Of a stretch of 42,358 nt of DNA, positions 18,262 to 38,124 are shown one piece after another. Within the stretch, counting starts at the first letter, position 1. Each line of letters starts with the position of its first letter. The notes below the pieces were generated by a model. The model had not been told where the DNA came from. It did no database searches and worked only from the letters and a program-made list of their open reading frames with translations. Source of the stretch: a virus. Position numbers and translations under genes: made by a program. Location of the stretch: IMG/VR virus record IMGVR_UViG_3300037202_000059, positions 1-42,358 of that record; one strand, given 5' to 3'.

Positions 18262-19458
18262 GTGCATCCTCACTCTGTCGATTCACTCTCAGGGCTGTCT
18301 GTAGACTCCCCGCAGTTCCGGCAACGGGCTCCTCACATTGAATTGAGCGACGATCCGGACACGGCCACGCAACAGACAGTCCATGAAATGTGCGTGCAGA
18401 TTCACCAGGCGGCAAATGATCCCGTGGTGCAATCAGCCGCGCGTGATGCACAGAGATTCCAGGGCGGGCCGGATCACTTCTCGCCGGCAGAGGCATGCTG
18501 GTGGTGGGCGAAACACTATTTGCGGTTCCGTCACCACGGCGAACAGTTTGAAGTCTGGCGCGGCGACCTGGGCGACCCTCGGAACAAGCTGCAACTCCTG
18601 ATCGCGCCCGACGTGCTGGTCCGCATGTCGAGGATGGAGGGCGACTGCGCCATCTATACAATGATGCTCTGCGCCATGCTCGAAGCTCTGGACATTCAGT
18701 GGGAGATCGTTACGGCCGCCGTGGACGCGCGCCAGCCGGAGATATTCGGGCACGTGTGGCCGCGTGCCGTACTCCCCGGTGGCAATCGGGAACCTCTCGA
18801 TGCGTCCCACGGCAAGTATCCGGGGTGGCAAGTCCCGGCGTACGATCTCCACCGGGTGTGGGTGTTCAACTCGGACGGGCAGCGGATCGGCGAACAGCGG
18901 GCCGGGTTCACGGGGCTCCACGCGTACCGTAGGCGGCGCGGGTTCGGGCGGCACGGTCTCGGCACAATGGTTTGCGATGATACCGGAGAGAACTGTTACG
19001 ACGACGGCACAACGTACGGCGCCACGAGCGGCGGGCAATGCCCTGGGAGTCCGGGGTGTCCCGGCTACGTGGACCCGAATGCCAGCACCACCAATTTCGC
19101 ATCGTTGGGGGTTAATGTTGCGACCCTCGACCCGTCTCTCATTCCTTATTCCGGGGCGCTTACCGATTCTTCCGGCACACCGTATACGGGCTCTGCCTAC
19201 TCGGTGCCGTCCCAGTCGTCCGCGCAGTGGGCCGCCTTCGCTACAGCGATGGGCAAGGCCGGAATGACCCTGGCAGAGATCAATGCCATTCAGCCGGGTA
19301 CGGTCGTCAGCGCGAACGGAACGATTCTGAGGCAAGCAACCGGGATCGCCGTACCGGGAACCACATTGAGCACAACGCTGGGCAGTATGTCCTCCAGCAC
19401 GTTGATGATTGTCGGTGTGGTAGTGATTGGCGCTCTGCTGCTCATGGGGCGGAAGTAG
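18262..19458 (+). CDS. Tail-anchored transglutaminase-like cysteine protease/crosslinker
   Basis: This 398-residue protein is taken from GTG 18262; the first ATG would be at residue 42. Residues about 60-190 form a transglutaminase-like core: E-G-D-C at 126-129 (nucleophile Cys129) followed by a helix, then H-V-W with His164, then P-L-D with Asp180. That gives the Cys-His-Asp triad in the order expected. Residues 195-370 are Gly/Ser/Thr-rich. The C-terminus is one membrane helix (I-V-G-V-V-V-I-G-A-L-L-L-M) plus G-R-K. Such a protein could process or crosslink virion proteins or cut peptidoglycan, held on the virion membrane. It heads the long plus-strand block. Confidence 0.72.
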   Translation: MHPHSVDSLSGLSVDSPQFRQRAPHIELSDDPDTATQQTVHEMCVQIHQAANDPVVQSAARDAQRFQGGPDHFSPAEACWWWAKHYLRFRHHGEQFEVWRGDLGDPRNKLQLLIAPDVLVRMSRMEGDCAIYTMMLCAMLEALDIQWEIVTAAVDARQPEIFGHVWPRAVLPGGNREPLDASHGKYPGWQVPAYDLHRVWVFNSDGQRIGEQRAGFTGLHAYRRRRGFGRHGLGTMVCDDTGENCYDDGTTYGATSGGQCPGSPGCPGYVDPNASTTNFASLGVNVATLDPSLIPYSGALTDSSGTPYTGSAYSVPSQSSAQWAAFATAMGKAGMTLAEINAIQPGTVVSANGTILRQATGIAVPGTTLSTTLGSMSSSTLMIVGVVVIGALLLMGRK

Positions 19459-19459
19459 C

Positions 19460-20200
19460 ATGTACGTCGTCACACGCACGGGCTTAGGGTACTCGGGGCC
19501 GCAGTGGCGTCCGGGGTTTGGGGATGTATCGACGGGACAGGTCACCGGGAGTGCGCAAAACGCGGCCTCGGCGGTCTCGGACTTCACGTCTTCCGGTGGC
19601 GGGGCGAAGTACTTGAAGGGGTCGGGCGCGGCATTGCTCGCCGCGGCGCCGTTCGCCGGGCCAGCTGCTCCGTTCCTGGCAATCGCGGGTACGGCGCTTG
19701 AGCTGCTGGGGCAGATGGGCGTCGGCTCGGGGTGTGGTCAAAAGTGCGTGCTTTCGACAACGTACGCCAATAAGGCCGAGGCGATCTTCCAGCAAAACTG
19801 CAATACGTATTTCGCCCTGCCAGCGCCTCGGACTGTCTCTCAGCAGCAGGCGGCACTGACGATCTTCGATTCGATTTGGCTTGACCTGACGCAGCAGTGC
19901 GGCGTGGCTTCCTTGGGCGATCCCGGTAAGCGTTGTATCAGCGATCGGCAATCGGGCGCATGCACGTGGAAACAGACGGGACAGTCTCCGTGGCCTGGCG
20001 GGCCAGCTCTGGGCGCGTGCTGGAACTGGTTCAATGCCTACAGAGACCCGATAGCCAATGACCCGGTAGTGCCGGATACGGTCGCGTCATCGGTGTCGGG
20101 CGCCGCGACTACCTTGGAGTCGGCCTTGGGCGTGTCTTCATCCTCTTTAATGCCCTTGCTTCTGATCGGCGGTTTGATTGTTCTGGCGGTGAGCCTATGA
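19460..20200 (+). CDS. Membrane-anchored virion-type protein
   Basis: This 246-residue protein starts at MYVVTRTGLG, two bases after the previous stop. The N-terminus has the G-L-G...G-F-G-D motif seen in several neighbours. One hydrophobic stretch lies near residues 60-85 (A-A-L-L-A-A-A-P-F-A-G-P-A-A-P-F), and a C-terminal membrane helix ends the protein (L-M-P-L-L-L-I-G-G-L-I-V-L-A-V). Several cysteines lie between, suggesting an oxidised exterior domain. A minor membrane protein of the virion is inferred. Confidence 0.62.
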   Translation: MYVVTRTGLGYSGPQWRPGFGDVSTGQVTGSAQNAASAVSDFTSSGGGAKYLKGSGAALLAAAPFAGPAAPFLAIAGTALELLGQMGVGSGCGQKCVLSTTYANKAEAIFQQNCNTYFALPAPRTVSQQQAALTIFDSIWLDLTQQCGVASLGDPGKRCISDRQSGACTWKQTGQSPWPGGPALGACWNWFNAYRDPIANDPVVPDTVASSVSGAATTLESALGVSSSSLMPLLLIGGLIVLAVSL

Positions 20201-20781
20201 GCTACCGACCAAAGCGTGGGATGGGATGGACAGTGGATTCCACGGGGTACGGTGTCCTGGCTCCCACGTACGAGAATTGCATCGGGTCGTCCGGTGTACC
20301 GGAGACGGCGTGTACTCAGCGCAACCAGGTTCTTAACGATGCGTGGGGCGCGGCGAATCTTGCGCAGTCGAACGCGAAGCATCTGTCCGATTGCCTCCAG
20401 AGCTATCCGGCCGCAACGTGCCATGCGCAGTTTGATCCGGGTGGGGCGGCTGCTGCGGTGGCGAACGCGGGGCAACCGGTGCAGGGGTATGTCGCGGCGC
20501 CGGTCGTCATTCCTCAGGTGGCCGTAGCGCAACCGGTCGCCATGCCGGTCCTTTACCCCGGCGGCTCTCCCAGCGGGCCTCCTACGGCGGGGCCGGTCGT
20601 CATCAATTCGAGCGGCGCCGCTGCCGTACCTGCGAATACGCCGGTATCGAATCCCACCGATAGCACGGGGCAGCCCATTTCTACTGCGTCCACGGGGTTC
20701 GATCTGTCTTCGATTCCGTGGTGGGGGTGGGTGGGCGCGGCGGCGGTTGCGCTGTTCGCATTCAGTAAAGGAGGTCGGTAG
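20197..20781 (+). CDS. Tail-anchored Pro/Ala-rich membrane protein
   Basis: This 194-residue protein starts at MSYRPKRGMGW, overlapping the previous stop by 4 bases. The first 80 residues carry four cysteines. Residues 85-165 are Pro/Ala/Val-rich and extended. The C-terminus is a membrane helix (W-W-G-W-V-G-A-A-A-V-A-L-F-A-F) with tail S-K-G-G-R. The layout of N-terminal motif, spacer, C-terminal helix and basic tail is shared with at least six other gene products here. Confidence 0.65.
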   Translation: MSYRPKRGMGWTVDSTGYGVLAPTYENCIGSSGVPETACTQRNQVLNDAWGAANLAQSNAKHLSDCLQSYPAATCHAQFDPGGAAAAVANAGQPVQGYVAAPVVIPQVAVAQPVAMPVLYPGGSPSGPPTAGPVVINSSGAAAVPANTPVSNPTDSTGQPISTASTGFDLSSIPWWGWVGAAAVALFAFSKGGR

Positions 20782-20782
20782 G

Positions 20783-21340
20783 ATGGCCGATAACAGCGGC
20801 TTGATTAAGATTGCGGCAATTGGTGCGGCGATGTGGTTGGCCTACACCGAAGGCTGGCTTTCATTTCTTGGGATCGGCGCGGCTTCGTCCTCCGCGACCG
20901 CGGCGACAACCGGGACGCCTGCGGCCAGTGCCGTTGCCAGCCCTCCGGCTGCAAGCGTCCCGGCGATTACTTCGGCTCCTCCCGCCCCGAATCCGAAAGC
21001 GAATGTTTTGGATGGCATTTACACGGCGATGGTGAAAGCGGCTAACGCTCCCTCGGCAGGCCTCGGAGTCGACGCCTGGGGGTACTACCTGAACAACCAA
21101 CTCGCGCCACTTGGATTGCAGGCTCCGGATCCGCAACCGCTGTTTTCGGACTACATCACGGCAATCAATGCGCTGGCACTTCCGGGAGCGCCCGTGCTTC
21201 CTGCGTTTGATCGGTCTACCTTTCTAGTGACGGCACCTATCTATTGGGGCGTCATGGCGCCTGCGCTTCGGACTCAGCTTGGTCTTTCCGGTCTCGGCAT
21301 CTACGGCGGACTTGGGGCGCTCGTGCGGAGGTACGCATAA
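20783..21340 (+). CDS. Membrane protein with N-terminal anchor
   Basis: This 185-residue protein starts at MADNSGLIK behind GGAGG. An N-terminal hydrophobic segment spans about residues 6-32. An Ala/Pro/Ser-rich linker follows, then a helical globular domain (V-D-A-W-G-Y-Y-L-N-N-Q-L-A-P-L-G). It ends S-G-L-G-I-Y-G-G-L-G-A-L-V-R-R-Y-A. A virion membrane protein is inferred from context. Confidence 0.62.
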   Translation: MADNSGLIKIAAIGAAMWLAYTEGWLSFLGIGAASSSATAATTGTPAASAVASPPAASVPAITSAPPAPNPKANVLDGIYTAMVKAANAPSAGLGVDAWGYYLNNQLAPLGLQAPDPQPLFSDYITAINALALPGAPVLPAFDRSTFLVTAPIYWGVMAPALRTQLGLSGLGIYGGLGALVRRYA

Positions 21341-21341
21341 C

Positions 21342-21620
21342 ATGTACGTGCAATCTGGACTTGGACGCAGGGGATTGGGGGACGCGGCTTCGGATGCGGC
21401 GACTTACGCGGCGCTGTTGGCGGCGGGGAATCCCACGTGTACGTGCTACATGGGCTCCTGCTTAGAGAGCGGCAATTCGTGCTCATCGCCAGCCGTTACG
21501 CCCACGCCAACGTCTCTGACGGCATCGTCCCTGACGGCATGGCTGAACAGCAACAGCACGTACCTTTGCATTGGTGTGGTGGCTGCGCTTGGATTACTGA
21601 TGCTTGGGAAGGCACGATGA
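21342..21620 (+). CDS. Small tail-anchored protein
   Basis: This 92-residue protein starts at MYVQSGLGRRGLGD. A cysteine-rich middle (C-T-C-Y-M-G-S-C) is followed by a Thr/Ser linker, one C-terminal membrane helix (L-C-I-G-V-V-A-A-L-G-L-L-M-L) and the basic tail G-K-A-R. It is a typical member of the family repeated through this block. Confidence 0.65.
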   Translation: MYVQSGLGRRGLGDAASDAATYAALLAAGNPTCTCYMGSCLESGNSCSSPAVTPTPTSLTASSLTAWLNSNSTYLCIGVVAALGLLMLGKAR

Positions 21621-21886
21621 CACCAGCCACTCAAGGTCCGATCCATTTCAAACCGATGCACGGGTGTCTCTCGGTCGGTCAAAAGCTGTTCGATGCTTTT
21701 GGCCTCGGCGCATGGTGGGCCGGGGAAGACAACTTCGAAGGCGTCATCCGGGACAAGCTGAGGCAGTTGGGCGTGCCGGATCGGCCTATCGCCTTGAGTG
21801 GTCCGCAGTCCATGACACCTCGGCAGATGGCCGAAGAATCGGGATTCCTGAAGAAGGCGCGGCCCCACCGGAGGCTTAAAACGTAG
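21617..21886 (+). CDS. Small soluble protein
   Basis: This 89-residue protein starts at MTPATQGP, overlapping the preceding stop by 4 bases. It has no membrane helix, a central F-D-A-F-G-L-G-A-W-W segment and a basic C-terminus. It is one of the few soluble products in this stretch. Function is unknown. Confidence 0.6.
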   Translation: MTPATQGPIHFKPMHGCLSVGQKLFDAFGLGAWWAGEDNFEGVIRDKLRQLGVPDRPIALSGPQSMTPRQMAEESGFLKKARPHRRLKT

Positions 21887-21887
21887 C

Positions 21888-22325
21888 ATGGCGATTCGGT
21901 TCAAACGCGGGCTGGGTGTGACGACATACGAGTGTCAAGCTGTCCAGGATAGCTCCGACCCGATGAGCGCCAAGATTTCTTTGCCGTGCATGTGGGCGGC
22001 GATCTTCGGCTACAGCAATTCCGAGATTGGGGTTCCACCGGCTCCCACGGGGGCGGCGTTGACGGTTCCGCCGGTGTCGGGTACGGATGCGGCGGCGTTG
22101 GCGCAATCGCTCTCCGATCAGCAGGTAGTGGCACAGCAAGCGGTGAACGCGGCGGGTGTGCAAACCAACATTGTCGATCAGGCGGCAAGCGGGATCGTGG
22201 ATACAACGAACTCGTTAACGGATAGCTTGACTTCGTTGCTTCCGTGGATCTTGGGCGCGGCGGGTTTGCTCGTGTTCGGCATGGTCACAATGGGTAGTGG
22301 ATCGGCACGGAGGTATGGACGATGA
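21888..22325 (+). CDS. Tail-anchored protein with N-terminal RGLG motif
   Basis: This 145-residue protein starts at MAIRFKRGLGV. Two cysteines lie in the first 40 residues. A helical Ala/Val/Gln-rich region follows, then a C-terminal membrane helix (L-L-P-W-I-L-G-A-A-G-L-L-V-F-G-M) with tail A-R-R-Y-G-R. It has the same architecture as its neighbours. Confidence 0.64.
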   Translation: MAIRFKRGLGVTTYECQAVQDSSDPMSAKISLPCMWAAIFGYSNSEIGVPPAPTGAALTVPPVSGTDAAALAQSLSDQQVVAQQAVNAAGVQTNIVDQAASGIVDTTNSLTDSLTSLLPWILGAAGLLVFGMVTMGSGSARRYGR

Positions 22326-22589: not shown

Positions 22590-22931
22590 ATGGCTTACCG
22601 TACAGCATCACAGATTGGACCTCCGGTGAGCATGACTACCGGGCTCAGTGGTTGCGGCAAGGGGATGGGCTGCGGGTGCGCGGGCATGGGCTGCGCCGGC
22701 CTCGGTCTGTTCGATTCAGGCATGGACTTCACGACATGGGGCGCTCCAGAGTGGGGCATCGTCATCACCGGGATTTACACACTTTTCTCAATCTTCGGCG
22801 ATACAAAGCGCGGGGCGCAGCGCGTCAAGGGAACTGTGACCGGAGCGTACCGGGGCGCGAGAAGCTCAGGGCGGGATTCAGGCGGGAGCAAACGGAAGCG
22901 CAATCCAGGCCGGCGAAGGGCGAGACGGTAA
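22590..22931 (+). CDS. Membrane protein with GMGCG repeats and basic NP tail
   Basis: This 113-residue protein starts at MAYRTASQIG. Residues 20-42 are Gly/Cys repeats (G-K-G-M-G-C-G-C-A-G-M-G-C-A-G). One membrane helix follows (G-I-V-I-T-G-I-Y-T-L-F-S-I-F), then a long basic tail with K-R-K-R-N-P-G-R-R-R. The basic tail may contact genome DNA inside the membrane. Confidence 0.62.
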   Translation: MAYRTASQIGPPVSMTTGLSGCGKGMGCGCAGMGCAGLGLFDSGMDFTTWGAPEWGIVITGIYTLFSIFGDTKRGAQRVKGTVTGAYRGARSSGRDSGGSKRKRNPGRRRARR

Positions 22932-23182: not shown

Positions 23183-23407
23183 ATGGCAGCGCATCAGGTC
23201 AACATTACGGATAGGGCGAAACGGTACCGGGGTCATGCGGTGAGAATCAATCGCCGTGGCTGGACCGTGGATCTGTTGGGGTTGAAGCGCGACATTGCAG
23301 AGGGCACGCTGAAGGCAGAGGATCGGGACTTTATCGAGAAGGTCCTGCCGAGGTTTTGCGACTTTGCGGCGGGCACAATTGATAGTTGGCCGGTGAAAGC
23401 ATCATGA
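23183..23407 (+). CDS. Small protein with NITDRAxRYR N-terminus
   Basis: This 74-residue protein begins M-A-A-H-Q-V-N-I-T-D-R-A-K-R-Y-R. The HNH protein two genes downstream begins with nearly the same sequence, so the two share a duplicated N-terminal module. The rest is a helical domain (F-I-E-K-V-L-P-R-F-C-D-F). Function is unknown. Confidence 0.6.
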   Translation: MAAHQVNITDRAKRYRGHAVRINRRGWTVDLLGLKRDIAEGTLKAEDRDFIEKVLPRFCDFAAGTIDSWPVKAS

Positions 23408-23697
23408 GTTACAGATTGCGCGGATTCGGCGATGCGGCGGCAACGGCTATTGCAACGCCGCTTGTCATCACGCCAACAGCCCCGATGTCCGCTACTCAGA
23501 GTACACTGGTGAGCCTTTATAGTTGGCCATTGACTCAACTATGCAAAGTGATGCCACAGCCTACCGCCGCGAACCCACAGCCAGCCTTTTCAAGCATCTG
23601 TGAAGGCGGTTTCGGTTTTAACCCAGTGGCGATTGTGCTTCCTGGATTGATATGGGGGGCGGTCGCCTATGTGCTGTTTTTCAGGGGGCGACGGTGA
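23404..23697 (+). CDS. Tail-anchored protein with YRLRGFG motif
   Basis: This 97-residue protein starts at MSYRLRGFGDA, overlapping the previous stop by 4 bases. It has a mid region with two cysteines, a C-terminal membrane helix (A-I-V-L-P-G-L-I-W-G-A-V-A-Y-V-L) and tail R-G-R-R. The N-terminal motif is nearly identical to those of the genes at 36029 and 36232, more than 12 kb away. Confidence 0.65.
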   Translation: MSYRLRGFGDAAATAIATPLVITPTAPMSATQSTLVSLYSWPLTQLCKVMPQPTAANPQPAFSSICEGGFGFNPVAIVLPGLIWGAVAYVLFFRGRR

Positions 23698-25241
23698 TGG
23701 CAGCACGCGCGGTCAACATCACGGATAGGGCACACCGATATCGAGCGAATAAACTCGCGCCGGTCGCGGGGAAGAAGTGCCTGCTCTGTGGCTCGACCAA
23801 GAACCTCGTGCCTGACCATTGGGACGGGCATCCCGACCATACGAACCCGGCGAATCTCGAAGTGCTGTGCAAGTCCTGCAACACGGCCAAGGGTGCGGCC
23901 TTTGCCAAGGCGGGCCGGGGCCGGTTGACGAATCAATACAACCCGACGGTCGCGGGTTCCTGGGAAGTCGCCTTGAAAGACACGCGCACGGGCAGGTTGT
24001 TCTATGTCACGGTGGATGCTCTAAACCGTGAGGCAGCGATCCGGAAGGCCAAGGCTGGGTTACCTGCAACGTCAGTACATGGCGTGCCTCGCCGCATTGA
24101 TGAACGCCAGTACAATCCGACGAAGGGCGGCGGGGCGGCCAACGTGGGCGAGTGGATGAACGCGGTAGGCGCCATCACGCCGCACGTGGACCGTGGCGAC
24201 CGTGGGCTCTCTACCACCATGAGCACGCGGGATGCGGTGGACATGATCCGCGCGACTCCGCAGAGCAAGCGGCGCGACTTCGCCGCGAAACTGGGGCGGC
24301 GCAACCCGGCGATTCGTGAAAACCTTTTCGGCTTCGGGGCGAAGCCCGCGCCGGTCACGCGCAAGCGGCGCGGTGGCCTGACGTTGAGTGAGGCGGCCTC
24401 GGCAGCAACGAAGGCGGGCCGGAAGTCGCGCGACATGTCCGACTTTGACGACTGGTTGGAATCGAAACGGCTGGGCGATCGCTCGGATGGTTTCGTCTCG
24501 CGAGTGCGCGATTCCTACAAGCGCGGAGTAGACGCGGCGGAAGCGGACGAAAAGAACACGGAGTACTTGCAGTCCCTGCCCAAGTTGCGCGCATCGAAGT
24601 CCGCCACGTTTAAGGGCCGCGCCATCAAGCCGACCGAGGGCGGCTCCTGGGTGGTTCCGTCCATCGACAAAGAGAGCGAGTTCGATACCTTGCAGGATGC
24701 GAAAGCATTCATCACGTCGTGGAAGCGGAACCCGGCCAAGGGCGCGGCGGAAGTCTACGAAGAGTTCCACGGCTTCAAACCTTCGGAAGTGGTGACAGTC
24801 ACCAAGAAGATTCACTACCATGCGCAACTGGCGGCGGCTGGTCTCCTGACGCACTTGGACGTGTGGGGCATCGACCGCAAGGGCCATCGGATCGAGGGCT
24901 TTAAAGGAGCCTTCCTTGCGTTCAATGAAACGAAGAATCAGCTTTTTGTGGAAGGTGGCGATCAGTCTGTTAACCTTGAGGATTTTGGGATTGATCCTCC
25001 ACACGAACTGGAAACCCTGGGACGGTTGACCGACATCGGGTACAAAACGAATAAGACGCACCTGGGAGATGAAGGCGGCGAGGCGGTGTACGTCCACAAG
25101 TTCCGGACCACGAACGATAACGGAAAGCACGTCACGGTGAGAATCGCACGGTACCCGGATCTGATTTACGACGTGCGGAACGCACAGCTTTTGTTCTCGG
25201 GTGGGAGTTATGAAATTCTGCGGGAGGGCATTAACAAATGA
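23697..25241 (+). CDS. HNH-domain protein fused to a large unknown domain
   Basis: This 514-residue protein has its ATG overlapping the previous stop by one base. Residues 28-62 form an HNH zinc module: C-L-L-C at 28-31, D-H at 40-41, then C-K-S-C-N at 58-62. Several N-P motifs follow (Y-N-P-T, R-R-N-P, K-R-N-P-A-K). The last 155 residues form a separate, apparently folded domain (V-Y-E-E-F-H-G-F, F-L-A-F-N-E-T-K-N-Q-L-F-V-E-G-G-D). I recall similar C-terminal domains in uncharacterised phage proteins but cannot name one. A nuclease gene within a structural block may mean a role in packaging or a homing origin. Confidence 0.7.
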   Translation: MAARAVNITDRAHRYRANKLAPVAGKKCLLCGSTKNLVPDHWDGHPDHTNPANLEVLCKSCNTAKGAAFAKAGRGRLTNQYNPTVAGSWEVALKDTRTGRLFYVTVDALNREAAIRKAKAGLPATSVHGVPRRIDERQYNPTKGGGAANVGEWMNAVGAITPHVDRGDRGLSTTMSTRDAVDMIRATPQSKRRDFAAKLGRRNPAIRENLFGFGAKPAPVTRKRRGGLTLSEAASAATKAGRKSRDMSDFDDWLESKRLGDRSDGFVSRVRDSYKRGVDAAEADEKNTEYLQSLPKLRASKSATFKGRAIKPTEGGSWVVPSIDKESEFDTLQDAKAFITSWKRNPAKGAAEVYEEFHGFKPSEVVTVTKKIHYHAQLAAAGLLTHLDVWGIDRKGHRIEGFKGAFLAFNETKNQLFVEGGDQSVNLEDFGIDPPHELETLGRLTDIGYKTNKTHLGDEGGEAVYVHKFRTTNDNGKHVTVRIARYPDLIYDVRNAQLLFSGGSYEILREGINK

Positions 25242-26387: not shown

Positions 26388-27341
26388 ATGGCCTACTCGG
26401 TCGTCGATACGCATATTCAGAATCCGGCCAGAGCCGGGAAGGGGAAGAAACGCATGGCAAAGACTCGCCGCAAAATGAGCGCGAAACAGATCAAGCATTT
26501 TGGGACCAAGCGCCAGAAAGCGGCGCTAAAGGCCAGACGTCACGCACCCGCGAGAAAGCGCAATCCGCCGAAGGGCGGGGGCCGCGTCATCAGCGGGTAC
26601 GGCTCGACCGTGATGAATCCGCGTCGGCGCAAGCGCAATCCTGGCGGTTCTCACAAGATCGTCATCAACGGCGCCCGCAAGCGCAAAAACAGTTCGCATC
26701 GTCGCAGGACGAAGCGGAACCCGGAGCTCGTGAGTTTCTTGCTCGGGAATCCAGCAAAAAGGAGCAGTAAAGGCATGGCACGAAGCAGACGAAAGACGAA
26801 GCGCGCCGCCTCCCATCGCAGCAACGCTGGGACCCGGCGCAGGAGAGTAATTAAACACGTGGCGCATCGCCGCCGGAGTGTTCGCAATCCGGGTGGGATG
26901 CCGCTCAAGGACTTCATGTGGGGCGGCATCGGCGGCCTGGCCGGGTTCGTTGGCTCGGCGGCGATTCCGCAGCTGCTCATGAGCTCGAGCAACACCGGGG
27001 TAACCGGGTACGCCATGACGGCGGCGGCCACCATCGGACTCACGATCCTGGCTCACATGTTCGTCAAAAACAAGGCCGTGACGTTCGGCGTGGGCATCGG
27101 CGGCGCCATGAACCTGTTGCGGCGCGTCATCACCGATCAGACGCCCTTCGGGTCGTACCTGTCCTCCAGCGGCATGGGCGACTACATGGTAGCCAACTGG
27201 GGACCACCCAGGATGCAGAACGGTCTGCATTCGGCAATGGCGGAATCTCCCGGTACTCCGTGGAGCGGAGCGGCGATCGGGACTTCCTCGGGCATCGGAC
27301 TTCAGGACATGTCCGATATCCGGTCGGGCCGTCCCTGCTAA
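26388..27341 (+). CDS. Highly basic NP-repeat protein with C-terminal membrane region
   Basis: This 317-residue protein follows GGAGG. Residues 1-168 are extremely Lys/Arg-rich with six N-P motifs (K-R-N-P-P-K, M-N-P-R-R-R, K-R-N-P-G-G, K-R-N-P-E, G-N-P-A-K, V-R-N-P-G-G). Residues about 173-250 contain two or three hydrophobic helices (G-G-I-G-G-L-A-G-F-V-G-S-A-A-I-P, M-T-A-A-A-T-I-G-L-T-I-L-A). The last 70 residues are Gly/Ser-rich. The layout suggests a protein tethering condensed genome DNA to an internal membrane. It is directly upstream of the candidate capsid gene. Confidence 0.62.
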   Translation: MAYSVVDTHIQNPARAGKGKKRMAKTRRKMSAKQIKHFGTKRQKAALKARRHAPARKRNPPKGGGRVISGYGSTVMNPRRRKRNPGGSHKIVINGARKRKNSSHRRRTKRNPELVSFLLGNPAKRSSKGMARSRRKTKRAASHRSNAGTRRRRVIKHVAHRRRSVRNPGGMPLKDFMWGGIGGLAGFVGSAAIPQLLMSSSNTGVTGYAMTAAATIGLTILAHMFVKNKAVTFGVGIGGAMNLLRRVITDQTPFGSYLSSSGMGDYMVANWGPPRMQNGLHSAMAESPGTPWSGAAIGTSSGIGLQDMSDIRSGRPC

Positions 27342-27453: not shown

Positions 27454-28200
27454 ATGGCAGCTTTGACGACGAAGAATGGCGCGCCGGTGGCCGCGGGCGC
27501 CTCGGTCAATCCCGGTGGAGCCGACATCAACGCCCTTCTGGGCGGCATCGTGGACCGCAAGAAGTGGTACTGGTACGACACCCTGAAGTTCGCACCGGGT
27601 GTCACCGTGCAAGCGCAGGAATACAACTTCTTTGCGACGGCACAAGGGCAACCCGACCCGTACAACAACAATCAACCGAAATCGTACCTGGATACCAACA
27701 TCACGCCTCCTGGCGGACAGTTCTCCAGTCCGTACGACTGCGTGCTGACCAACCTGGGGTTCAAGTACTCCTCGGACATGGTGTTGTACGACATCATCCA
27801 AATCGAGAAGTACGGATTTTTCAAATTCAACATTTTGGAGAAAATATTCTTCAAGGGACACGTGTGGCGGCATCCTCCGGGGGCCGGCATTTCGGGCGCC
27901 ACGTCGAACACGTCTCAGGCTGTCTGGAACAACGGCGTACCCGATCCGGGCGCAATCTACTACTTCGGCCAATGGTCGAAGTACATTCCGCCACTGACCA
28001 CCTTCGGCCTCACGCTTCAGTGGTTCCAGACGGTCGGACAAGCGACTCAGGGCAACACTGGCGCAACGCTGGGCGCCACCGCTCAGGCGTTCGCTCAGTC
28101 GGCGGCCGCGCTGCCCACGTTCGCCACGGTCGCCCAGGGCGGCAATGGAGTATGGCTCCAGGCAATCATGAACGGTCTTTCGGACGGTCCTGTCCAGTAG
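27454..28200 (+). CDS. Candidate major capsid protein (jelly-roll-like)
   Basis: This 248-residue protein is preceded by GGACGGGGAG, one of the best ribosome sites in the block. It lacks membrane helices. Its strand-rich pattern (Q-F-S-S-P-Y-D-C-V-L-T-N-L-G-F, I-I-Q-I-E-K-Y-G-F-F-K-F-N-I-L, Y-I-P-P-L-T-T-F-G-L-T-L-Q-W) with an intervening H-P-P-G-A-G loop resembles single jelly-roll capsid proteins. The C-terminal 60 residues are an Ala/Thr/Gln-rich arm. It has its own 110-bp leader region. No HK97-type capsid exists elsewhere in the genome. The capsid call is inference. Confidence 0.5.
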   Translation: MAALTTKNGAPVAAGASVNPGGADINALLGGIVDRKKWYWYDTLKFAPGVTVQAQEYNFFATAQGQPDPYNNNQPKSYLDTNITPPGGQFSSPYDCVLTNLGFKYSSDMVLYDIIQIEKYGFFKFNILEKIFFKGHVWRHPPGAGISGATSNTSQAVWNNGVPDPGAIYYFGQWSKYIPPLTTFGLTLQWFQTVGQATQGNTGATLGATAQAFAQSAAALPTFATVAQGGNGVWLQAIMNGLSDGPVQ

Positions 28201-28314: not shown

Positions 28315-29190
28315 ATGTACGTACGCGACACAGATCCGTTACCGTGCATTCTGCAACAACCGACGCAGGCGCAAGCGGCCTACGATGCGCAGGTTGTGCA
28401 GAACATGGAAAATTCCGTCAATAACGCGTACGCGGCATCGCAGATGATCGCCGGGCCGGAATCCTTCGCTGACTTTGGCCCTATCGTCCAACTGGACGTG
28501 GCGCTACAGCAGGCCAACATGGGGGCGGCCAATAGTACGGCGGCCTCCATCGTTTCCGGTTCAATCCCTTCCCCTTCCGCTCCCGCTCCGCGTGGTCCCC
28601 GCGTGTTCGCGCTGAATGTTGACCAAGCCGAATACGCGGGGTGCTCTCGCGGTGGGGCAAGCTACCTGCCGGCGAGGGTGCAACCGCCTCAGCCGGTCAC
28701 CATGCCGGCGCGCGTGGCGGGTGACGTCGGGCTTGTGGTGCCAGCGTCACCGGGTACGGCGCCGAAGTACTCCAACCTCTGCTGGGCCTTGCACAATGGA
28801 GAAATCACGCAGGATCAATTTGACCTGGTGACGTACGGCAAACTGTACCGGACGTGCGCGGCACTGGGATATACGCAAGGATGCTCGCCACCTACGGCTG
28901 TAGCGGCGTGGATCATGCAACAAAGGGCGGCGGGCACGCTACCACACATCAACGTCTCGGATGCGGAGCTCGCGGCGATTCCCCACGCTCCCGACATGAC
29001 CAATATGGGATGCTCGCAAGCGTTGATAGCCGGAGGCGGCATGGGCACGTGGGGAGATGCGGGGGGCGATCCGTCCACGTACGGCTGGCCGCGCCGCAGA
29101 TCTCAGATGAACTGGTCGGCCCTTTTGTTTTTGGGGGCTGTGGGTGTAGGCTTGTACGTGATGGCAGAGAAGAAAAGTGGACGCCGGTAG
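28315..29190 (+). CDS. Large tail-anchored membrane protein
   Basis: This 291-residue protein has its start (MYVRDTDPLP) preceded by AGAGGA. A helical N-terminal part leads to a Pro/Ser linker, then a domain with six or more cysteines (C-S-R-G-G, N-L-C-W-A, R-T-C-A-A-L-G-Y-T-Q-G-C-S). The C-terminal membrane helix (A-L-L-F-L-G-A-V-G-V-G-L-Y-V-M) ends in E-K-K-S-G-R-R. The final codons G-V-G-L-Y-V-M-A recur 550 bp downstream in a partial duplication. Confidence 0.62.
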   Translation: MYVRDTDPLPCILQQPTQAQAAYDAQVVQNMENSVNNAYAASQMIAGPESFADFGPIVQLDVALQQANMGAANSTAASIVSGSIPSPSAPAPRGPRVFALNVDQAEYAGCSRGGASYLPARVQPPQPVTMPARVAGDVGLVVPASPGTAPKYSNLCWALHNGEITQDQFDLVTYGKLYRTCAALGYTQGCSPPTAVAAWIMQQRAAGTLPHINVSDAELAAIPHAPDMTNMGCSQALIAGGGMGTWGDAGGDPSTYGWPRRRSQMNWSALLFLGAVGVGLYVMAEKKSGRR

Positions 29191-30962: not shown

Positions 30963-31537
30963 GTTACGTACTTCCGGACTTCCGGATCAAGTTACGGGAC
31001 TGCTACGATAACGATCTGATGGATTCGATGGTGGCGGCCGTCGAATGCGGCTTCCCGCAGAACCCCCTGAACTTCCTGGGGCAATTGTTGACGGGGCCTC
31101 CAGTGCCTCTCGATGGGCCGGATGAAGGGATCTACTGTCCGCGTGGGGGAATCATTCAGGCATTCATTAAGGGTGGCGCATCGTTGCCTGGGCCTAACGG
31201 GTGTCCACCAATCGGCGGTAATTTACTGAGCATTTCGCTGTACGGAGTGAAGCGGTACGCGGAATGTGAACAGGGGTTTGCGGGCCACTTTCAATCGAGC
31301 CAAGGGGCGGGGAAAATCGTGGGCTACCGCCCGCAGTTCGCCTACCCTACGTCTCGTGGGTGCCGGGATGAGGACTTCGTGTACTACTTTGACGGGTCCA
31401 ACGTCCCATTGCTGGCTAACGGGCTCGCGGCTGGGGTCGAGATCGACTACATCCCTCTGCCGTTGGATCAGGATGCGCCGTTCTACTGGCGCGGGTGGAA
31501 AGTCGGATTGTTTATTACTTCGAGGCCCGTACAATGA
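30959..31537 (+). CDS. Beta-rich structural-type protein
   Basis: This 192-residue protein has a GTG start coupled to the previous stop. It is strand-rich with no membrane helix and several cysteines (A-V-E-C-G-F, I-Y-C-P-R-G-G, G-C-P-P-I-G-G, R-G-C-R-D-E-D). It ends G-W-K-V-G-L-F-I-T-S. Its size and pattern resemble the single-domain products at 33170 and 33694. A minor capsid or spike component is inferred from position. Confidence 0.48.
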   Translation: MSYVLPDFRIKLRDCYDNDLMDSMVAAVECGFPQNPLNFLGQLLTGPPVPLDGPDEGIYCPRGGIIQAFIKGGASLPGPNGCPPIGGNLLSISLYGVKRYAECEQGFAGHFQSSQGAGKIVGYRPQFAYPTSRGCRDEDFVYYFDGSNVPLLANGLAAGVEIDYIPLPLDQDAPFYWRGWKVGLFITSRPVQ

Positions 31538-32229
31538 GCCTACCTCTGGTCAGTTGCATCATGCCCACGAAGAACAGGCGCGAATTTGTGCCGAAGGCGA
31601 TTGAGTACTTCTTGCGGCAGACGTACCCGAACAAAGAGTTAGTGATTGGCGCGGAGGTTTTTGACCCGTCTCCCTGGATTCGGCTTAACGGTGTGCGAGC
31701 ATTTGTGTGCCGTGACGGGCTGACGCTCGGGGCCAAGCGCAACTGGTGCGTGGAGCATTCGCAGGGCGATCTGATCGCACATTGGGATGATGACGACCGG
31801 TACGGGCCGACCCGGCTTGCGCACCAAGTTGAATTGATGCAGACTTGTCATGCTGAGGTGTGCGGCGTTGGCGCGCCTTTGTTTTACGACCTTGCTGCGG
31901 GGAAGGCGTTCCGGTACACATACCCCGGACCGGGAGCGTACATCTACAGCGCAACGCTGATGTACACGCGCGATTACTGGGCAAGATCTCCGTTTCCGGA
32001 TGTCCAGGTGGGCGCGTCTACTCCGTTCGTGTGCGGGCCGGGACGGTTGGATAAATCGGCGGGTGATTTTGGGGATTGGTACGTGGGTATCGCGCATTCC
32101 TCCAATAATTCACCCAAGCGGTTTGAGGCGAGCGAATTCACTCAATGGCATGGCGACATCGAAGGGCGCCTCGGTGCCGACTGGCCTTTCTACCAGGGCT
32201 TGCGTGAGCGCATGGGGGTAGCGGCGTGA
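31534..32229 (+). CDS. Family 2 glycosyltransferase
   Basis: This 231-residue protein overlaps the previous gene by 4 bases and starts MSLPLVSCIMPTKNR, the standard GT2 opening strand. The nucleotide-sugar/metal site is W-D-D-D-D-R-Y at residues 84-90. G-A-K-R-N at 66-70 precedes it, as in other GT-A enzymes. No membrane helix follows, so it is soluble. Lying inside an overlapping run of virion-type genes, it may glycosylate a capsid or spike protein, or alter host surface sugars. Confidence 0.85.
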   Translation: MSLPLVSCIMPTKNRREFVPKAIEYFLRQTYPNKELVIGAEVFDPSPWIRLNGVRAFVCRDGLTLGAKRNWCVEHSQGDLIAHWDDDDRYGPTRLAHQVELMQTCHAEVCGVGAPLFYDLAAGKAFRYTYPGPGAYIYSATLMYTRDYWARSPFPDVQVGASTPFVCGPGRLDKSAGDFGDWYVGIAHSSNNSPKRFEASEFTQWHGDIEGRLGADWPFYQGLRERMGVAA

Positions 32230-34293: not shown

Positions 34294-34554
34294 ATGTCAC
34301 CCGAAGATCACCCTGCCATTCTCGAAATGCCCTACCACAAGTTTAAGCCGTCCGAATTCCCCGGTGGAGAAGGACGGTGCGACTTCTGCGGTGGGGGAGA
34401 AGGGGCAGAGGTCCATCAGAAGCCGGTAGACCAGATGGCACGGATTGCCGATGCGCTGGAAGGGATACTTGAGGTCCTGACGCAACGGAACGATTGGGAA
34501 GCGGACGACCGCCTTGTTATCGCCATCAATGAGCGCGTGAGGGACGGGCAATGA
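34294..34554 (+). CDS. Small zinc-knuckle/helical protein
   Basis: This 86-residue protein, MSPEDHPAIL, is predicted to be read from a leaderless message. C-D-F-C near residue 29 with a following histidine could bind zinc. The C-terminal half is helical (M-A-R-I-A-D-A-L-E-G-I-L-E-V-L). Function is unknown. Confidence 0.62.
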   Translation: MSPEDHPAILEMPYHKFKPSEFPGGEGRCDFCGGGEGAEVHQKPVDQMARIADALEGILEVLTQRNDWEADDRLVIAINERVRDGQ

Positions 34555-35021
34555 CGCAGAACGATTACGCCACCTTCATCTACTACTTCGGCGCACGGGA
34601 GAAGTCGAAAGCGGAAGTAGCAGAGTTGATCTCGGACACGCTCCGGACGTTGCGTGACGCGGAGTGGGCCTGGCCGGAAGGGGCGCGGTTGCCTATTGCT
34701 GGTGCCGTCCTCGCTTTCGAGACGATGTATCCCGACCGTGCGGCCGGTTGGCGGCGGGAATTCCCATCGCTCTACGCTCGCGTCATGCCAGCGATGGAGA
34801 ACAACCCGGACGATCCGCAATGGATCGAATTTCACATTGCACAGTGGTACCTGTTGCGGCGGGAGTCTTCGTTGGATTCCATCTTGGACCTGATTGCGGA
34901 CTTCACGCATTCTTTTGCGATGCGTCAGAAGATCGAGACGGCCATTGGGCAATCGATCCCTTTGCGTAAAGCTTTCCAGGCGGCCAAGCGGGCGCGGGAA
35001 GCCTCGATGCTCATTCAGTAG
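34551..35021 (+). CDS. Helical protein of unknown function
   Basis: This 156-residue protein overlaps the previous gene by 4 bases. It is all-alpha and rich in aromatic residues (F-I-Y-Y-F-G-A-R-E-K-S, W-I-E-F-H-I-A-Q-W-Y-L-L-R-R). No known motif is seen. The clean codon structure and coupling make it a confident gene. Confidence 0.68.
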   Translation: MTQNDYATFIYYFGAREKSKAEVAELISDTLRTLRDAEWAWPEGARLPIAGAVLAFETMYPDRAAGWRREFPSLYARVMPAMENNPDDPQWIEFHIAQWYLLRRESSLDSILDLIADFTHSFAMRQKIETAIGQSIPLRKAFQAAKRAREASMLIQ

Positions 35022-35031
35022 GAGGTTTCAA

Positions 35032-35259
35032 ATGGAAGGTATAGACATCGATTCTATCGTCCGCAAAGCGGTTGCGGAGTATCGGCGGCAAGAGCGGGAG
35101 CACGTTGAAGCGACGGCCGCTCAATCCATCAACGAGAAACAGCGGGAACTCGAATGCCGCTTTGGCGAGTTGGCATGCCGCCTTGGCGAGGTGGCGCGGC
35201 GGGTCTTTGCGATTGAAGACGTCATGCAACACCACGGGAGATCGAATGCCGAACGCTGA
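35032..35259 (+). CDS. Coiled-coil protein
   Basis: This 75-residue protein starts behind AGGAGG. It is almost entirely one charged helix with heptad-like spacing (I-D-S-I-V-R-K-A-V-A-E-Y, L-E-C-R-F-G-E-L-A-C-R-L-G-E-V). It probably oligomerises. It overlaps the next gene by 14 bases. Confidence 0.62.
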   Translation: MEGIDIDSIVRKAVAEYRRQEREHVEATAAQSINEKQRELECRFGELACRLGEVARRVFAIEDVMQHHGRSNAER

Positions 35260-35377
35260 CGACGTGCTGTACTCGGCTGGCAACCCTCACGTGCCCTATG
35301 CCGCGATACCACCAAGTCCGTTCTTTGGAAGACGAACAACGGAGAGCAGACCGGGGCCTATCCAAAGACAGTCTTGA
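35246..35377 (+). CDS. Truncated tandem copy of the next gene
   Basis: This 43-residue product, MPNADDVLYSAGNPHVPYAA..., matches the first 22 or so residues of the gene at 35443 (MANAEKVLYTAGNPHVPYAA). It then diverges into a basic tail lacking the helix and membrane segment. It looks like a partial tandem duplication that may still be translated. Confidence 0.55.
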   Translation: MPNADDVLYSAGNPHVPYAAIPPSPFFGRRTTESRPGPIQRQS

Positions 35378-35442
35378 AGCTGGGGACATCGTCAGGCATC
35401 ATTTCAACCATGAGAACGATTAAAGACAATTCGGGAGATCAA

Positions 35443-35703
35443 ATGGCGAACGCTGAGAAGGTTCTGTACACGGCTGGCAATCCGCACGTGCCGTACGCCG
35501 CGATACCGGCGGAATCGGTCTACATGGAGTTGGACCGGGAAAACTCTCGGCTGATCTACGCCAGAGCGGAACTGCAGGGCGAGTTGAACGAAGCGCGGGA
35601 AGCGTTGAAGGCGGCAAGGTTCCGTGTGCTCTGTCTCGGCGTGGTAGTTGGACTCTACACGGCCGGCGGGCTCATCACGATTGCGGTCCTGCTTTTGCGT
35701 TGA
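35443..35703 (+). CDS. Tail-anchored coiled-coil membrane protein
   Basis: This 86-residue protein has its ATG preceded by CGGGAG. The N-terminal 22 residues are shared with the truncated copy just upstream. A coiled coil (L-D-R-E-N-S-R-L-I-Y-A-R-A-E-L-Q) is followed by one C-terminal membrane helix (V-V-V-G-L-Y-T-A-G-G-L-I-T-I-A-V-L-L-L). Orientation and function are unknown; a spanin-like or virion membrane role is possible. Confidence 0.62.
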   Translation: MANAEKVLYTAGNPHVPYAAIPAESVYMELDRENSRLIYARAELQGELNEAREALKAARFRVLCLGVVVGLYTAGGLITIAVLLLR

Positions 35704-35936
35704 AATCGTGCCACCTTCCCGCCGTGTATCGCGCGTTTCCGACGTGCTCTGAAGCCTCACATTAAAAGTAGACATAACGTCCGCTATCGGCAACAGACCC
35801 TCTTTTGTGGGGTATTCCGGCACTTTGGCGGGCCTCTGGAATCCGCCACGCAACGCGGTGGTACCGGGGCCTCTCAGGAGCGTCCACGAAACCCTGAAGC
35901 GCGGGCGAATCGGCCTGTACGGTTTCCCAGGTATGG
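35704..35936. other. Intergenic stretch without a convincing gene
   Basis: This 233-bp gap separates the coiled-coil gene from the small membrane protein at 35937. A plus-strand frame from 35807 (N-terminus V-G-Y-S-G-T-L-A-G-L) stays open to 36016 but loses plausible protein character where it overlaps the next gene. A TACAAT -10-like box at 35940-35945 lies just beyond the end of the gap. Confidence 0.4.
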
Positions 35937-36029
35937 GTGTACAATTCGGGTGTGGTCATCATTGCAACCGTGCTCATCGGACTCATTGGCGCACTGATTC
36001 TGTTGCTGCTGTTTGAAGGGTGGGAGTGA
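35937..36029 (+). CDS. 25-30 residue single-TM protein
   Basis: The product is one hydrophobic helix (V-V-I-I-A-T-V-L-I-G-L-I-G-A-L-I-L-L-L-L) with an acidic end F-E-G-W-E. The start is GTG 35937 or GTG 35952. The latter sits 6 nt after a TACAAT box, matching the compact-promoter pattern. The stop overlaps the next ATG by one base. Confidence 0.55.
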   Translation: MYNSGVVIIATVLIGLIGALILLLLFEGWE

Positions 36030-36232
36030 TGTACCGTCTCCGTGGCATGAATCCTCAGGTGCCCATTGCTACGGGCCGGGTGCCTTGTCCGAATCCTCCC
36101 CGTGGTGGCTGGAGAGTCGGCCCGTACCGGCGTGGCACGGGTTGGGCTATGCGATGGGCCGATCTCACCACGAGCACGCGTACCTATCGCACGAGAGCGG
36201 GCTGTCTGCGCGTCTGCCGGGGGAAGCACTGA
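36029..36232 (+). CDS. Arg-rich protein sharing the MYRLRGM start
   Basis: This 67-residue protein begins M-Y-R-L-R-G-M, encoded by almost the same 20 bases as the gene at 36232. The remainder is Arg/Pro/Gly-rich (C-P-N-P-P-R-G-G-W-R-V) with no membrane helix. It may be a decayed copy that lost its C-terminal helix, or a short basic virion protein. It is coupled on both sides. Confidence 0.45.
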   Translation: MYRLRGMNPQVPIATGRVPCPNPPRGGWRVGPYRRGTGWAMRWADLTTSTRTYRTRAGCLRVCRGKH

Positions 36233-36786
36233 TGTACCGTCTTCGTGGCATGGGTTCCACCTCTCTGGCGCAAGCGATCTTCCGCCAAGAGGGCACCATC
36301 GACAGCTCGGGGAACTGGGTAGCGTCTTCCTTGGGGTACCGGCTGAACAACCCCGGCAATCTGAACTATGCGGGCCAGCCGGGGGCTTCACCATCAGGGC
36401 AGGGGAACGGGTCGGAAGCGCAATTTGCCACGATGGATCAGGGGATCGCGGCGACGAATGCGCAGCTTGCAAAGGATGCGGGCCGGGGCCTGACAATCTC
36501 TCAGGAGTTTACGAAATGGGCGACGGGGAACAATGCGGCCTACATCGCGGATGTCTCGGCATGGACGGGGTACGACCCTTCGACGCCAATCTCCACGGTA
36601 CTGGCCGGGGGCGATCCGACCGTTTCCCCGGCTCCAGTGGATGATTCCGGCTCAATCCCGCTCGATACGGGCACTGTGAGCGATTCTTGGGACCTGTCTG
36701 ATACTTCCGGGTCAGGATTGAGTACAGGGGTCCTGGTGGCCTTGGGATTAGCAGCAGTGGTGGGATTATGGGCGATTGCGTCATGA
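36232..36786 (+). CDS. Tail-anchored peptidoglycan hydrolase (lysozyme/transglycosylase-like)
   Basis: This 184-residue protein starts at MYRLRGMGS. Residues about 12-125 match virion-associated muralytic domains: I-F-R-Q-E-G with Glu20 as likely catalytic acid, then L-N-N-P-G-N-L at 38-44, then a G-x-A-x-F/Q-F-A-T-M-D-Q-G-I-A-A segment and L-T-I-S-Q-E-F-T-K-W-A. An acidic Ser/Asp linker leads to a C-terminal membrane helix (V-L-V-A-L-G-L-A-A-V-V-G-L-W-A-I-A). A membrane-tethered hydrolase is unusual for tailed phages but suits an entry enzyme on a virion membrane. Its 3' end is duplicated about 595 bp downstream. Confidence 0.75.
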   Translation: MYRLRGMGSTSLAQAIFRQEGTIDSSGNWVASSLGYRLNNPGNLNYAGQPGASPSGQGNGSEAQFATMDQGIAATNAQLAKDAGRGLTISQEFTKWATGNNAAYIADVSAWTGYDPSTPISTVLAGGDPTVSPAPVDDSGSIPLDTGTVSDSWDLSDTSGSGLSTGVLVALGLAAVVGLWAIAS

Positions 36787-37064
36787 TGGCTTCGATTTTC
36801 GTTGTGGTCACCATCGCTTGCTCTTTTGCCTTCTACTTCCTGGGCCGGTCGCATTCCGAGGAAACAAGCTATCAGCGGGGCTTTGATGACGGTTTCGCTG
36901 TGAAATATCCGGATCTCAGTCGGCCATGCGGTGACAGACTAAACCCGCATCAGTTCGGCAAGTGGCGCGAGTGGGGTTCCGTCGGCTGGGACTTGATTAT
37001 GGTCAAGAATTGCACGCGGTGCGGTGACATATGCAAGAAGACAGAAACTCTCAAATATCATTGA
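36783..37064 (+). CDS. N-anchored membrane protein with cysteine cluster
   Basis: This 93-residue protein starts MMASIFVVV, coupled to the hydrolase stop. One membrane helix (I-F-V-V-V-T-I-A-C-S-F-A-F-Y-F-L) is followed by a charged tail. The end has C-T-R-C-G-D-I-C-K-K, a likely zinc knuckle. The protein is topologically simple; its role could be a lysis partner or a virion membrane protein. Confidence 0.6.
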   Translation: MMASIFVVVTIACSFAFYFLGRSHSEETSYQRGFDDGFAVKYPDLSRPCGDRLNPHQFGKWREWGSVGWDLIMVKNCTRCGDICKKTETLKYH

Positions 37065-37220
37065 GTTTGCCCATAAAATGCCAAATCCCAGGCGAGGTTC
37101 CAGGGTCAAGCGCGGTTGACACCCCCTCAGCACTTTTAGGCTTACCTCTGACATTTTGGGAATTCTTGGGGAACTTGGACCCTGTGATCGTGCGGTTGCG
37201 GCAGGGATGGAGGCTGAAAC
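37065..37220. other. Gap before the broken gene copy
   Basis: A frame from 37031 to 37231 is open (C-terminus V-I-V-R-L-R-Q-G-W-R-L-K-R-E-L) but overlaps the previous gene by 34 bases and lacks a ribosome site. I do not call it. No hairpin or promoter stands out. Confidence 0.35.
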
Positions 37221-37381
37221 GTGAGCTATAGACCATTGGTTTCCAGTGTGCTGCCCTGGATACGGGCGCTGTGAGCGATTCTTGGGATTTGTCTGATGGT
37301 TCTGGCTCATCTTTGAGTACAGGGGTCCTGGTGGCCTTGGGATTAGCAGCAGTGGTGGGATTATGGGCGATTGCCAGTTGA
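37221..37381 (+). pseudogene. Broken tail-anchored protein gene: MSYRP head, frame break, duplicated helix tail
   Basis: A GTG start at 37221 behind GGAGG encodes M-S-Y-R-P-L-V-S-S-V-L-P-W, the N-terminal style of the tail-anchored family, then stops at 37274. A second frame opens at GTG 37271 and encodes 36 residues ending V-L-V-A-L-G-L-A-A-V-V-G-L-W-A-I-A-S. This copies the tail of the hydrolase gene: 62 identical bases at 37313-37374 and 36718-36779, with a diverged flank from 37259. The overlap GTGA could still allow coupled translation of the helix. Confidence 0.65.
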
Positions 37382-37394
37382 GATCTTTCCGGTA

Positions 37395-37400
37395 TACAAT
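37395..37400 (+). promoter_or_regulatory. -10 box with GTG start 6 nt downstream
   Basis: TACAAT at 37395-37400 (part of TATACAAT), then CTGGAC, then GTG at 37407. It follows directly after the broken gene copy and has no clear -35. Confidence 0.45.
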
Positions 37401-37406
37401 CTGGAC

Positions 37407-37589
37407 GTGAGCATTTCACTTAAGCTGGCGGACATCGGCAGGATGCTGGTAGCTCGCTGTTCATCCCGTTTCGGGTTGGGAATCTTCCGCCTTCGGTATT
37501 TGCTTGGCGTCTACGGGCCACGGCTGGGTATGGCGTGGTGGTTGCGTCAGTCGCGCATGATCTGCCGTCACTACTGGGGGCTTGGCTAA
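37407..37589 (+). CDS. Small basic amphipathic protein
   Basis: This 60-residue protein starts at GTG (M-S-I-S-L-K-L-A-D-I). It is rich in Arg, Leu, Trp and Gly (F-G-L-G-I-F-R-L-R-Y-L-L-G-V-Y-G). It may be membrane-associated. The stop overlaps the next ATG by one base. Confidence 0.5.
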   Translation: MSISLKLADIGRMLVARCSSRFGLGIFRLRYLLGVYGPRLGMAWWLRQSRMICRHYWGLG

Positions 37590-37903
37590 TGGCGTGGCCC
37601 TGGCACAATCCCGTGATTCGATGCGCAGAATTGAACGCCATGTCGGAGGCGATGTGGCGGCGGCGTTCACTCTCACTGTTCGACAAGATCACCGTCCGGT
37701 TCACGGACGGGCAATACGTCTGCGTTCGCCACGGTCACCCGGAAGAGTACAAGTTTGAGAAGTACCGCGCTGCCGAAAACTGGCTGGCAAAATTCTATGA
37801 CGGCCTGCTCTATGGCTCCGGCGCGCCGGATGACATCTTCATGGACGCGCTGAAGGGTGTGAGCGCGGGACATCGCAAAGCGCCTGTAAATCGGAGGATC
37901 TGA
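37589..37903 (+). CDS. Soluble protein of unknown function
   Basis: This 104-residue protein starts at MAWPWHNPV, coupled to the previous stop. It has an alpha/beta pattern with F-T-D-G-Q-Y-V-C-V-R-H-G-H-P-E-E-Y-K and a helical A-A-E-N-W-L-A-K-F-Y-D-G-L. No family is recognised. Confidence 0.62.
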   Translation: MAWPWHNPVIRCAELNAMSEAMWRRRSLSLFDKITVRFTDGQYVCVRHGHPEEYKFEKYRAAENWLAKFYDGLLYGSGAPDDIFMDALKGVSAGHRKAPVNRRI

Positions 37904-37998
37904 CGAGGCTGTGTGGGCGGTTGCGTCCTAGTTCTGAAGTCCTGGTATCCCTTTTCACATCTGGTACCCCTTCCTTGCAATCCGTACACTTTAGACCA

Positions 37999-38026
37999 TT
38001 GGTTTCGTGTGTGCTCCCTCTATTAT
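37999..38026 (+). promoter_or_regulatory. Promoter within a duplicated 15-bp element
   Basis: -35 TTGGTT (37999-38004), 16-bp spacer, -10 TATTAT (38021-38026). The -35 lies in TAGACCATTGGTTTC (37992-38006), which also occurs at 37229-37243. The downstream gene at 38047 has a normal ribosome site, AAGAGG. Confidence 0.45.
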
Positions 38027-38046
38027 CGAAAGGTAAGAGGTGCTCC

Positions 38047-38124
38047 ATGCTCATTCTCGTGTTTTCGGCTCTTACGGCCCTGGCCGCTGGCGCTCTGGCC
38101 TACCGGCTGCGGCGGGTGAGGTAA
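38047..38124 (+). CDS. 25-residue single-TM protein with basic tail
   Basis: The product MLILVFSALTALAAG... is one hydrophobic helix followed by Y-R-L-R-R-V-R. AAGAGG lies 8 nt upstream of the ATG. It is another minimal tail-anchored product. Confidence 0.6.
   Translation: MLILVFSALTALAAGALAYRLRRVR

Follow-up and report, generated by a model that had tools for sequence, protein, structure and literature searches.

Gene content of the locus

The window analysed here, meaning the whole stretch of DNA, is the entire IMG/VR virus record IMGVR_UViG_3300037202_000059 and comprises 42,358 bases. It encodes a transglutaminase-like enzyme and a set of small, mostly tail-anchored proteins with a short glycine-based motif, hereafter the head, that usually lies near the N-terminus (Table 1). 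The core of the head is G[LMFIV]G[DQA], with an arginine favoured just before it; most often the core reads G[L/M]G, usually with R on its N-terminal side and D, Q or A on the other, and it lies within approximately 2–60 residues of the N-terminus. A first-pass annotation, made from the window alone, had described the head as YRxRG-hydrophobic-G, of which the G-hydrophobic-G core and the preceding R hold good; the tyrosine and the upstream arginine proved optional, and D/Q/A has to be added.

Table 1. Head-bearing genes and other features of the window
Position	Strand	Product	Remarks
18262–19458	+	Transglutaminase-like (TGase-fold) enzyme	C-H-D triad, disordered linker, C-terminal helix, GRK tail
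18940–18963	+	GFG and GLG, two internal copies of the motif (RRRRGFGRHGLGT)	Between catalytic domain and anchor
19460–20200	+	Tail-anchored, two heads	MYVVTRTGLG..RPGFGD (TRTGLGYS, RPGFGD)
20197–20781	+	Tail-anchored	Head MSYRPKRGMG, tail SKGGR
20783–21340	+	N-terminal hydrophobic segment	Motif near C-terminus (SGLGIYGGLG)
21342–21620	+	Tail-anchored	Head MYVQSGLGRRGLGD, tail GKAR
21888–22325	+	Tail-anchored	Head MAIRFKRGLG, tail SARRYGR
22590–22931	+	Cys-rich, KGMGCGCAGMGCAGLG	Basic C-terminus; hydrophobic stretch not C-terminal
23404–23697	+	Tail-anchored	Head MSYRLRGFGD, tail FRGRR
23652–25241		HNH/endonuclease VII-like	Internal NLFGFGAK; NP repeats
26388–27341	+	Basic, NP-rich membrane protein	GMGD after hydrophobic segments, GIG near C-terminus
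27454–28200	+	Virion-protein candidate, possible major capsid protein	Headless; conserved in 14 relatives
28315–29190	+	C-terminal helix and basic tail	Headless
31534–32229		Family 2 glycosyltransferase	Within structural gene block
36232–36786	+	Tail-anchored, muramidase-like	Head MYRLRGMG; PHROG transglycosylase/endolysin/tape-measure matches, best 1.2e-10

Six of the seven C-terminally anchored products of the window carry G[LMFIV]G within their first 22 residues, where shuffled ectodomains of the same set give 0.24 heads on average (P<5e-5, in a post hoc test, the anchored set having been chosen partly with heads in view). The codons specifying the heads differ from one window gene to the next; conservation therefore lies at the protein level, and conservation of the heads as DNA was ruled out.

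Certain members assigned by the first-pass annotation had to be revised. The protease-like product, i.e. the enzyme, does possess the motif, internally (RRRRGFGRHGLG) rather than at its N-terminus. In the cysteine-rich product the repeated GMG/GLG is present and its orthologs retain a repeated GxGC, the hydrophobic stretch not being the C-terminal one claimed. MYRLRGMN (36029–36232) is a doubtful member, lacking a helix, GxG and any relative; its DNA resembles that of the 36232 head. The near-identical DNA coding for MYRLRGMN (36029–36232) and MYRLRGMG (36232–36300) suggests a small local duplication. No member was supported at 37921–38124, the end of the span originally proposed.

The head motif in related viruses

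Relatives were retrieved from IMG/VR using profiles of the transglutaminase-like protein and three other window proteins. The resulting set consists of approximately 40 uncultured virus genomes, mostly of 35–65 kb, and of two contigs of 39–41 kb (L013, L014) lying in soil metagenome-assembled genomes labelled Phycisphaerales and Bryobacterales, labels which hint at hosts or at mis-binning. Genes were called with a home-made caller combining a codon score with ribosome-binding sites.

These relatives supplied an independent test, free of the selection bias of the window set. Within the first 30 residues, the motif was found in 136 of 305 C-anchored proteins against 103 of 1133 without terminal helices (p 8e-42), and in an earlier, smaller set in 45 of 109 against 38 of 595 (p 4e-19); kinship among the relatives inflates both p-values, and the proteins were hence also grouped by their middles alone. 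On this basis, the 134 motif-bearing proteins from the approximately 40 genomes form 72 groups, between which similarity could not be detected; this bears out the original claim of a shared head and a membrane-anchored tail with unrelated, swappable middles. Composition-preserving shuffles of the relatives produced 24 heads (maximum 43). The two outcomes that the first-pass annotation had named as refuting it, a motif no more frequent than chance and relatives lacking the C-terminal helix, are both contradicted.

Arginine at position −1 is enriched 7.9-fold, the central residue is L or M in 126 of 158 motifs, and D, Q or A follows in 107 of 158, D being at least as frequent as Q and A also frequent; Q after GxG is enriched 5-fold. 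In approximately 12% of the motif-bearing C-anchored proteins the first glycine is already at residue 2–4 (MGLGQ, MRGLGD, MMTGMGD). The tails have a median length of 4 residues and a net positive charge in 79% of the head-bearing versus 71% of the headless C-anchored proteins; a basic tail is therefore not specific to the former.

The most widespread head-bearing family is that of the 19460 gene, with approximately 40 orthologs in which GxG (or SxG) is the sole conserved element of an N-terminal stretch of 5 to 85 residues. Orthologs of the muramidase-like protein likewise retain their heads. A few proteins without a helix also possess a head. The motif lies near the C-terminus in two families, namely that of 20783–21340 (six orthologs, C-terminal SGLGxYxGxG) and that of 26388–27341, where G[VLM]GDY is present in 12/12 orthologs and the last GxG is close to the C-terminus in most. 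As a general property of N-anchored proteins a C-terminal motif fails (4/77), being true for these two families only. The 26388–27341 product is furthermore very basic, with repeated (K/R)NP motifs, and is conserved in 12 relatives; it is a candidate genome-condensing membrane protein.

The transglutaminase-like enzyme

The start codon of the enzyme gene is uncertain: translation may begin at the GTG at 18262 or at a later codon in the same frame, at the latest at 18388. Its C-H-D triad is invariant in 39/39 relatives, and 10 of 11 aligned members match Transglut_core (PF01841; best 2.6e-9), the window's own sequence alone falling below the cut-off (E 0.13). By profile and structural model the enzyme is a member of the Transglutaminase-like superfamily. 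The AlphaFold2 model gives residues 1–180 mostly with pLDDT 70–97; a linker predicted to be disordered follows, and the chain ends in a helix. Foldseek comparison with the PDB returned mouse PNGase, putative bacterial cysteine proteases (3isr, 3kd4), LapG (E 0.01–0.15) and transglutaminases. The Peptidase_C93 (BTLCP) profile was matched by just one of the 11 enzyme members, and weakly (E 0.02), which does not place the enzyme in that family. The fold is clear, the protease activity putative.

Wherever the contig of a relative extends far enough upstream of the 19460-family gene, the enzyme is encoded directly ahead of it, the exceptions being contigs that start at that gene; none of the relatives with sufficient sequence lacks the enzyme, and two relatives retrieved with the unrelated 29884 bait also encode it. 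The internal motif is located 31–54 residues past PGW, the last conserved element of the domain, and ahead of the anchor in 15 of 16 fused enzymes. Two separate genes take the place of the fused one in L007, L013 and L011, the enzyme gene being followed by one for a tail-anchored protein whose motif is 10 to approximately 56 residues from its start; the enzymes of L007, L013 and L058 carry a motif of their own.

A putative maturation protease and its alternatives

What was observed here is the motif with its enrichment, the neighbours of the motif, the fold and triad of the enzyme and the strict linkage of enzyme and neighbour gene. From these we infer a protease that has the motif as its target and works during assembly. 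The head would then be the recognition, and probably the cleavage, site of the virus's own TGase-fold cysteine protease (18262–19458), a reading to which we assign a probability of roughly 0.47. It is favoured by the enrichment of the motif in C-anchored proteins with unrelated middles, and by the fixed company of the enzyme and the presence of the motif between its domain and its anchor. The conservation of GxG alone in the free N-terminal stretch of the 19460 family fits a cleavage site behind a disposable pro-region. The presence of TGase-like cysteine proteases and LapG among the top Foldseek matches was counted for a protease, though PNGase and true transglutaminases match too, and so was the fit of LRGFG and LRGMG to the pattern cut by adenain, the adenovirus protease discussed below.

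The enzyme gene stands at the start of the structural gene block. In the proposed course of events the C-terminal helices would bring protease and substrates together by inserting them next to each other in one patch of membrane. After closure of the shell the protease would cut at GxG, which would detach its catalytic domain from the membrane anchor and shorten the remaining proteins at their membrane-distal ends, such that the particle would mature as a unit. The overall course would resemble adenovirus maturation, with an enzyme fold unrelated to that of the adenovirus enzyme.

Several points weigh against this proposal. A head at residue 2–4 leaves almost nothing to remove and few residues to grip; the enzymes of two relatives (L010/L073, L011/L071) are without an internal motif; and Foldseek cannot separate a protease from a transglutaminase or a peptide amidase.

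The heads at residues 2–4 are better explained by docking, with the head as a short linear tag that stays uncleaved, sits at the membrane-distal end, where it can lie at the very N-terminus, and plugs into one repeated site, for example on the inner face of the capsid shell, thereby tying many membrane proteins to the shell. The short and tolerant core resembles a peptide-binding motif, and the two otherwise-anchored families 20783–21340 and 26388–27341 have their motif near the C-terminus, as such a tag would allow. Against docking, C-terminal motifs are not general in N-anchored proteins, the motif of the TGase-like protein is situated between domain and anchor and so is not distal, and the invariant enzyme is left without a role; on balance a docking tag is judged less probable than a cleavage site, and is its main rival. 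The first-pass annotation had proposed sorting or docking of cargo onto one membrane, of which the tail anchors stand; a role of the head in putting cargo on the membrane is not supported, because the C-terminal helix and basic tail suffice and because the head is also found in a few helix-less proteins and internally in the TGase-like protein.

True transglutaminases have the same fold and triad, and together with the enrichment of Q after GxG this would suit a cross-linker stitching membrane proteins to one another or to the shell, with the head as acyl-donor or docking site. Since Q is no more common than D at this position, A is frequent, and many heads have neither Q nor K, this explanation is improbable. 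Leaders of type IV prepilins (class III) carry positive charges, then a glycine, then a hydrophobic residue, and the heads look like them; a leader processed by the host, cut between G and the hydrophobic residue, is nevertheless very improbable, since no hydrophobic segment follows the motif. Where a class III leader would have its hydrophobic stretch right after the cut site, the second glycine and polar D/Q/A/T/S are found instead; some motifs are moreover C-terminal or internal, and membrane anchoring is already provided by the C-terminal helix. A high GC content of the genomes and the small size and Gly/Ala-rich make-up of the proteins might favour a compositional accident or a mobile DNA element. 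The excess over composition-keeping shuffles (136 against a maximum of 43), the differing codons and the retention of the motif by orthologs while its flanks diverge make such an origin extremely improbable.

Comparison with known systems

The sites at which adenain processes the mutually unrelated precursor proteins of adenovirus read (M/I/L)xGG|x or (M/I/L)xGx|G, and IVGL|G and QRGF|G are among them (PMC4246237). Common to adenain (AVP) and to the proposal made here is a single viral cysteine protease acting at one short Gly-based site, N- or C-terminal, on many unrelated virion precursors. The differences are that the present enzyme has a TGase-like fold, is itself tail-anchored and belongs to a bacterial virus, that P4 is not limited to M/I/L, that D/Q/A follows the motif and that cleavage is predicted. 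It does not belong to the adenain/C48 class, which has an Ulp1-like fold and the order His-Asp/Glu-Cys; here the order is C-H-D and the fold matches TGase-like proteins. As to function, motif and enzyme occur together in the relatives, and cutting would be the predicted consequence. An independently evolved, adenovirus-style maturation of the whole virion in a large uncultured family of soil bacterial viruses, in which a tail-anchored TGase-fold protease would cleave both itself and membrane proteins of dozens of unrelated kinds at a universal R-G-(L/M)-G-(D/Q/A) site, and in which gain of a head and a tail would recruit new cargo, is a tentative extension that we consider rather doubtful.

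LapG, a protease with a C-H-D triad, cleaves its substrate at Ala-Ala close to the N-terminus (PMC3032545), and so shows that the TGase-like fold can cut an envelope protein at a specific site in its N-terminal part. The enzyme shares with LapG/BTLCP (Peptidase_C93) the fold and the triad and, as proposed, a small-residue site near the N-terminus of an envelope-associated substrate. It differs in that many substrates are proposed here versus one adhesin, and in that no LapD partner was seen, no search for one having been made.

In the LPXTG, PEP-CTERM and GlyGly-CTERM sorting signals the motif stands ahead of a C-terminal helix. The C-terminal helix and short basic tail are shared with the proteins described here, whereas the shared motif of the latter is at the end opposite the helix.

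PRD1 (Tectiviridae), PM2 (Corticoviridae) and P23-77 (Matshushitaviridae) resemble the window in that their structural genes encode numerous small membrane proteins, including a muramidase/transglycosylase. Unlike those of the window, their annotated C-anchored proteins are mostly headless (heads in 0/3, 0/4 and 2/7, respectively). One of the two P23-77 matches, ORF18 of this Thermus phage (L099, 9407–9757), starts with MAFSIGNTLNSSQGLGSSG, has a C-terminal helix and resembles the heads found here.

Genome and type of virus

A direct repeat of 116 bp (1–116 and 42243–42358) terminates the record, which is therefore a complete circular assembly of approximately 42.2 kb. Scans against the Pfam and PHROG profile libraries took in approximately 30 window proteins, some small genes being left out. 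Matches were to a helicase, a DNA methylase, HNH endonucleases, a family 2 glycosyltransferase and a transglycosylase-like protein; the head-bearing and virion proteins were mostly without a match. Among the proteins scanned there was no profile match to a terminase, portal or HK97-type capsid, and tail-category matches were confined to the transglycosylase segment of 36232–36786. A packaging ATPase of the A32/FtsK type was not found by a P-loop search, which a degenerate P-loop would escape, the sole Walker A-like motif in the window being that of the helicase. Given the lack of terminase, portal and HK97-type capsid matches and the restriction of Walker A to the helicase, the virus is probably a tailless, membrane-containing bacterial virus. 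A more distant relative, G008, encodes a protein with a GAGKS P-loop (locus L029, 13154–14617).

The possible major capsid protein (27454–28200) gave a beta-rich model of low confidence (pLDDT 39) and had no match in the PDB, PHROG or phage records; a single-sequence search with it retrieved no relatives. HHalign against the single sequences of PM2 P2, PRD1 P3 and P23-77 VP16/VP17 detected no similarity. The domain order of the HNH/endonuclease VII-like protein differs in relative G004 (locus L021, 15177–17165), and this shuffling of domains led to the rejection of an argument from gene fission based on the family.

Four proteins of the window, compared by tblastn with 50,697 phage records, gave zero matches. 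In a literature search, which was not exhaustive, neither this group of viruses nor a maturation protease with a transglutaminase fold was found to be described.

Significance

Under either of the two leading explanations, cleavage or docking, the motif marks the virion proteins of a family without a match, for the four proteins tested, among those phage records, and it provides a testable peptide substrate for an orphan enzyme. Were the head a docking tag, it would represent a universal plug between membrane cargo and the virus shell. If it is a cleavage site, these would be apparently tailless, membrane-containing bacterial viruses that mature by TGase-fold proteolysis, convergent with adenovirus.

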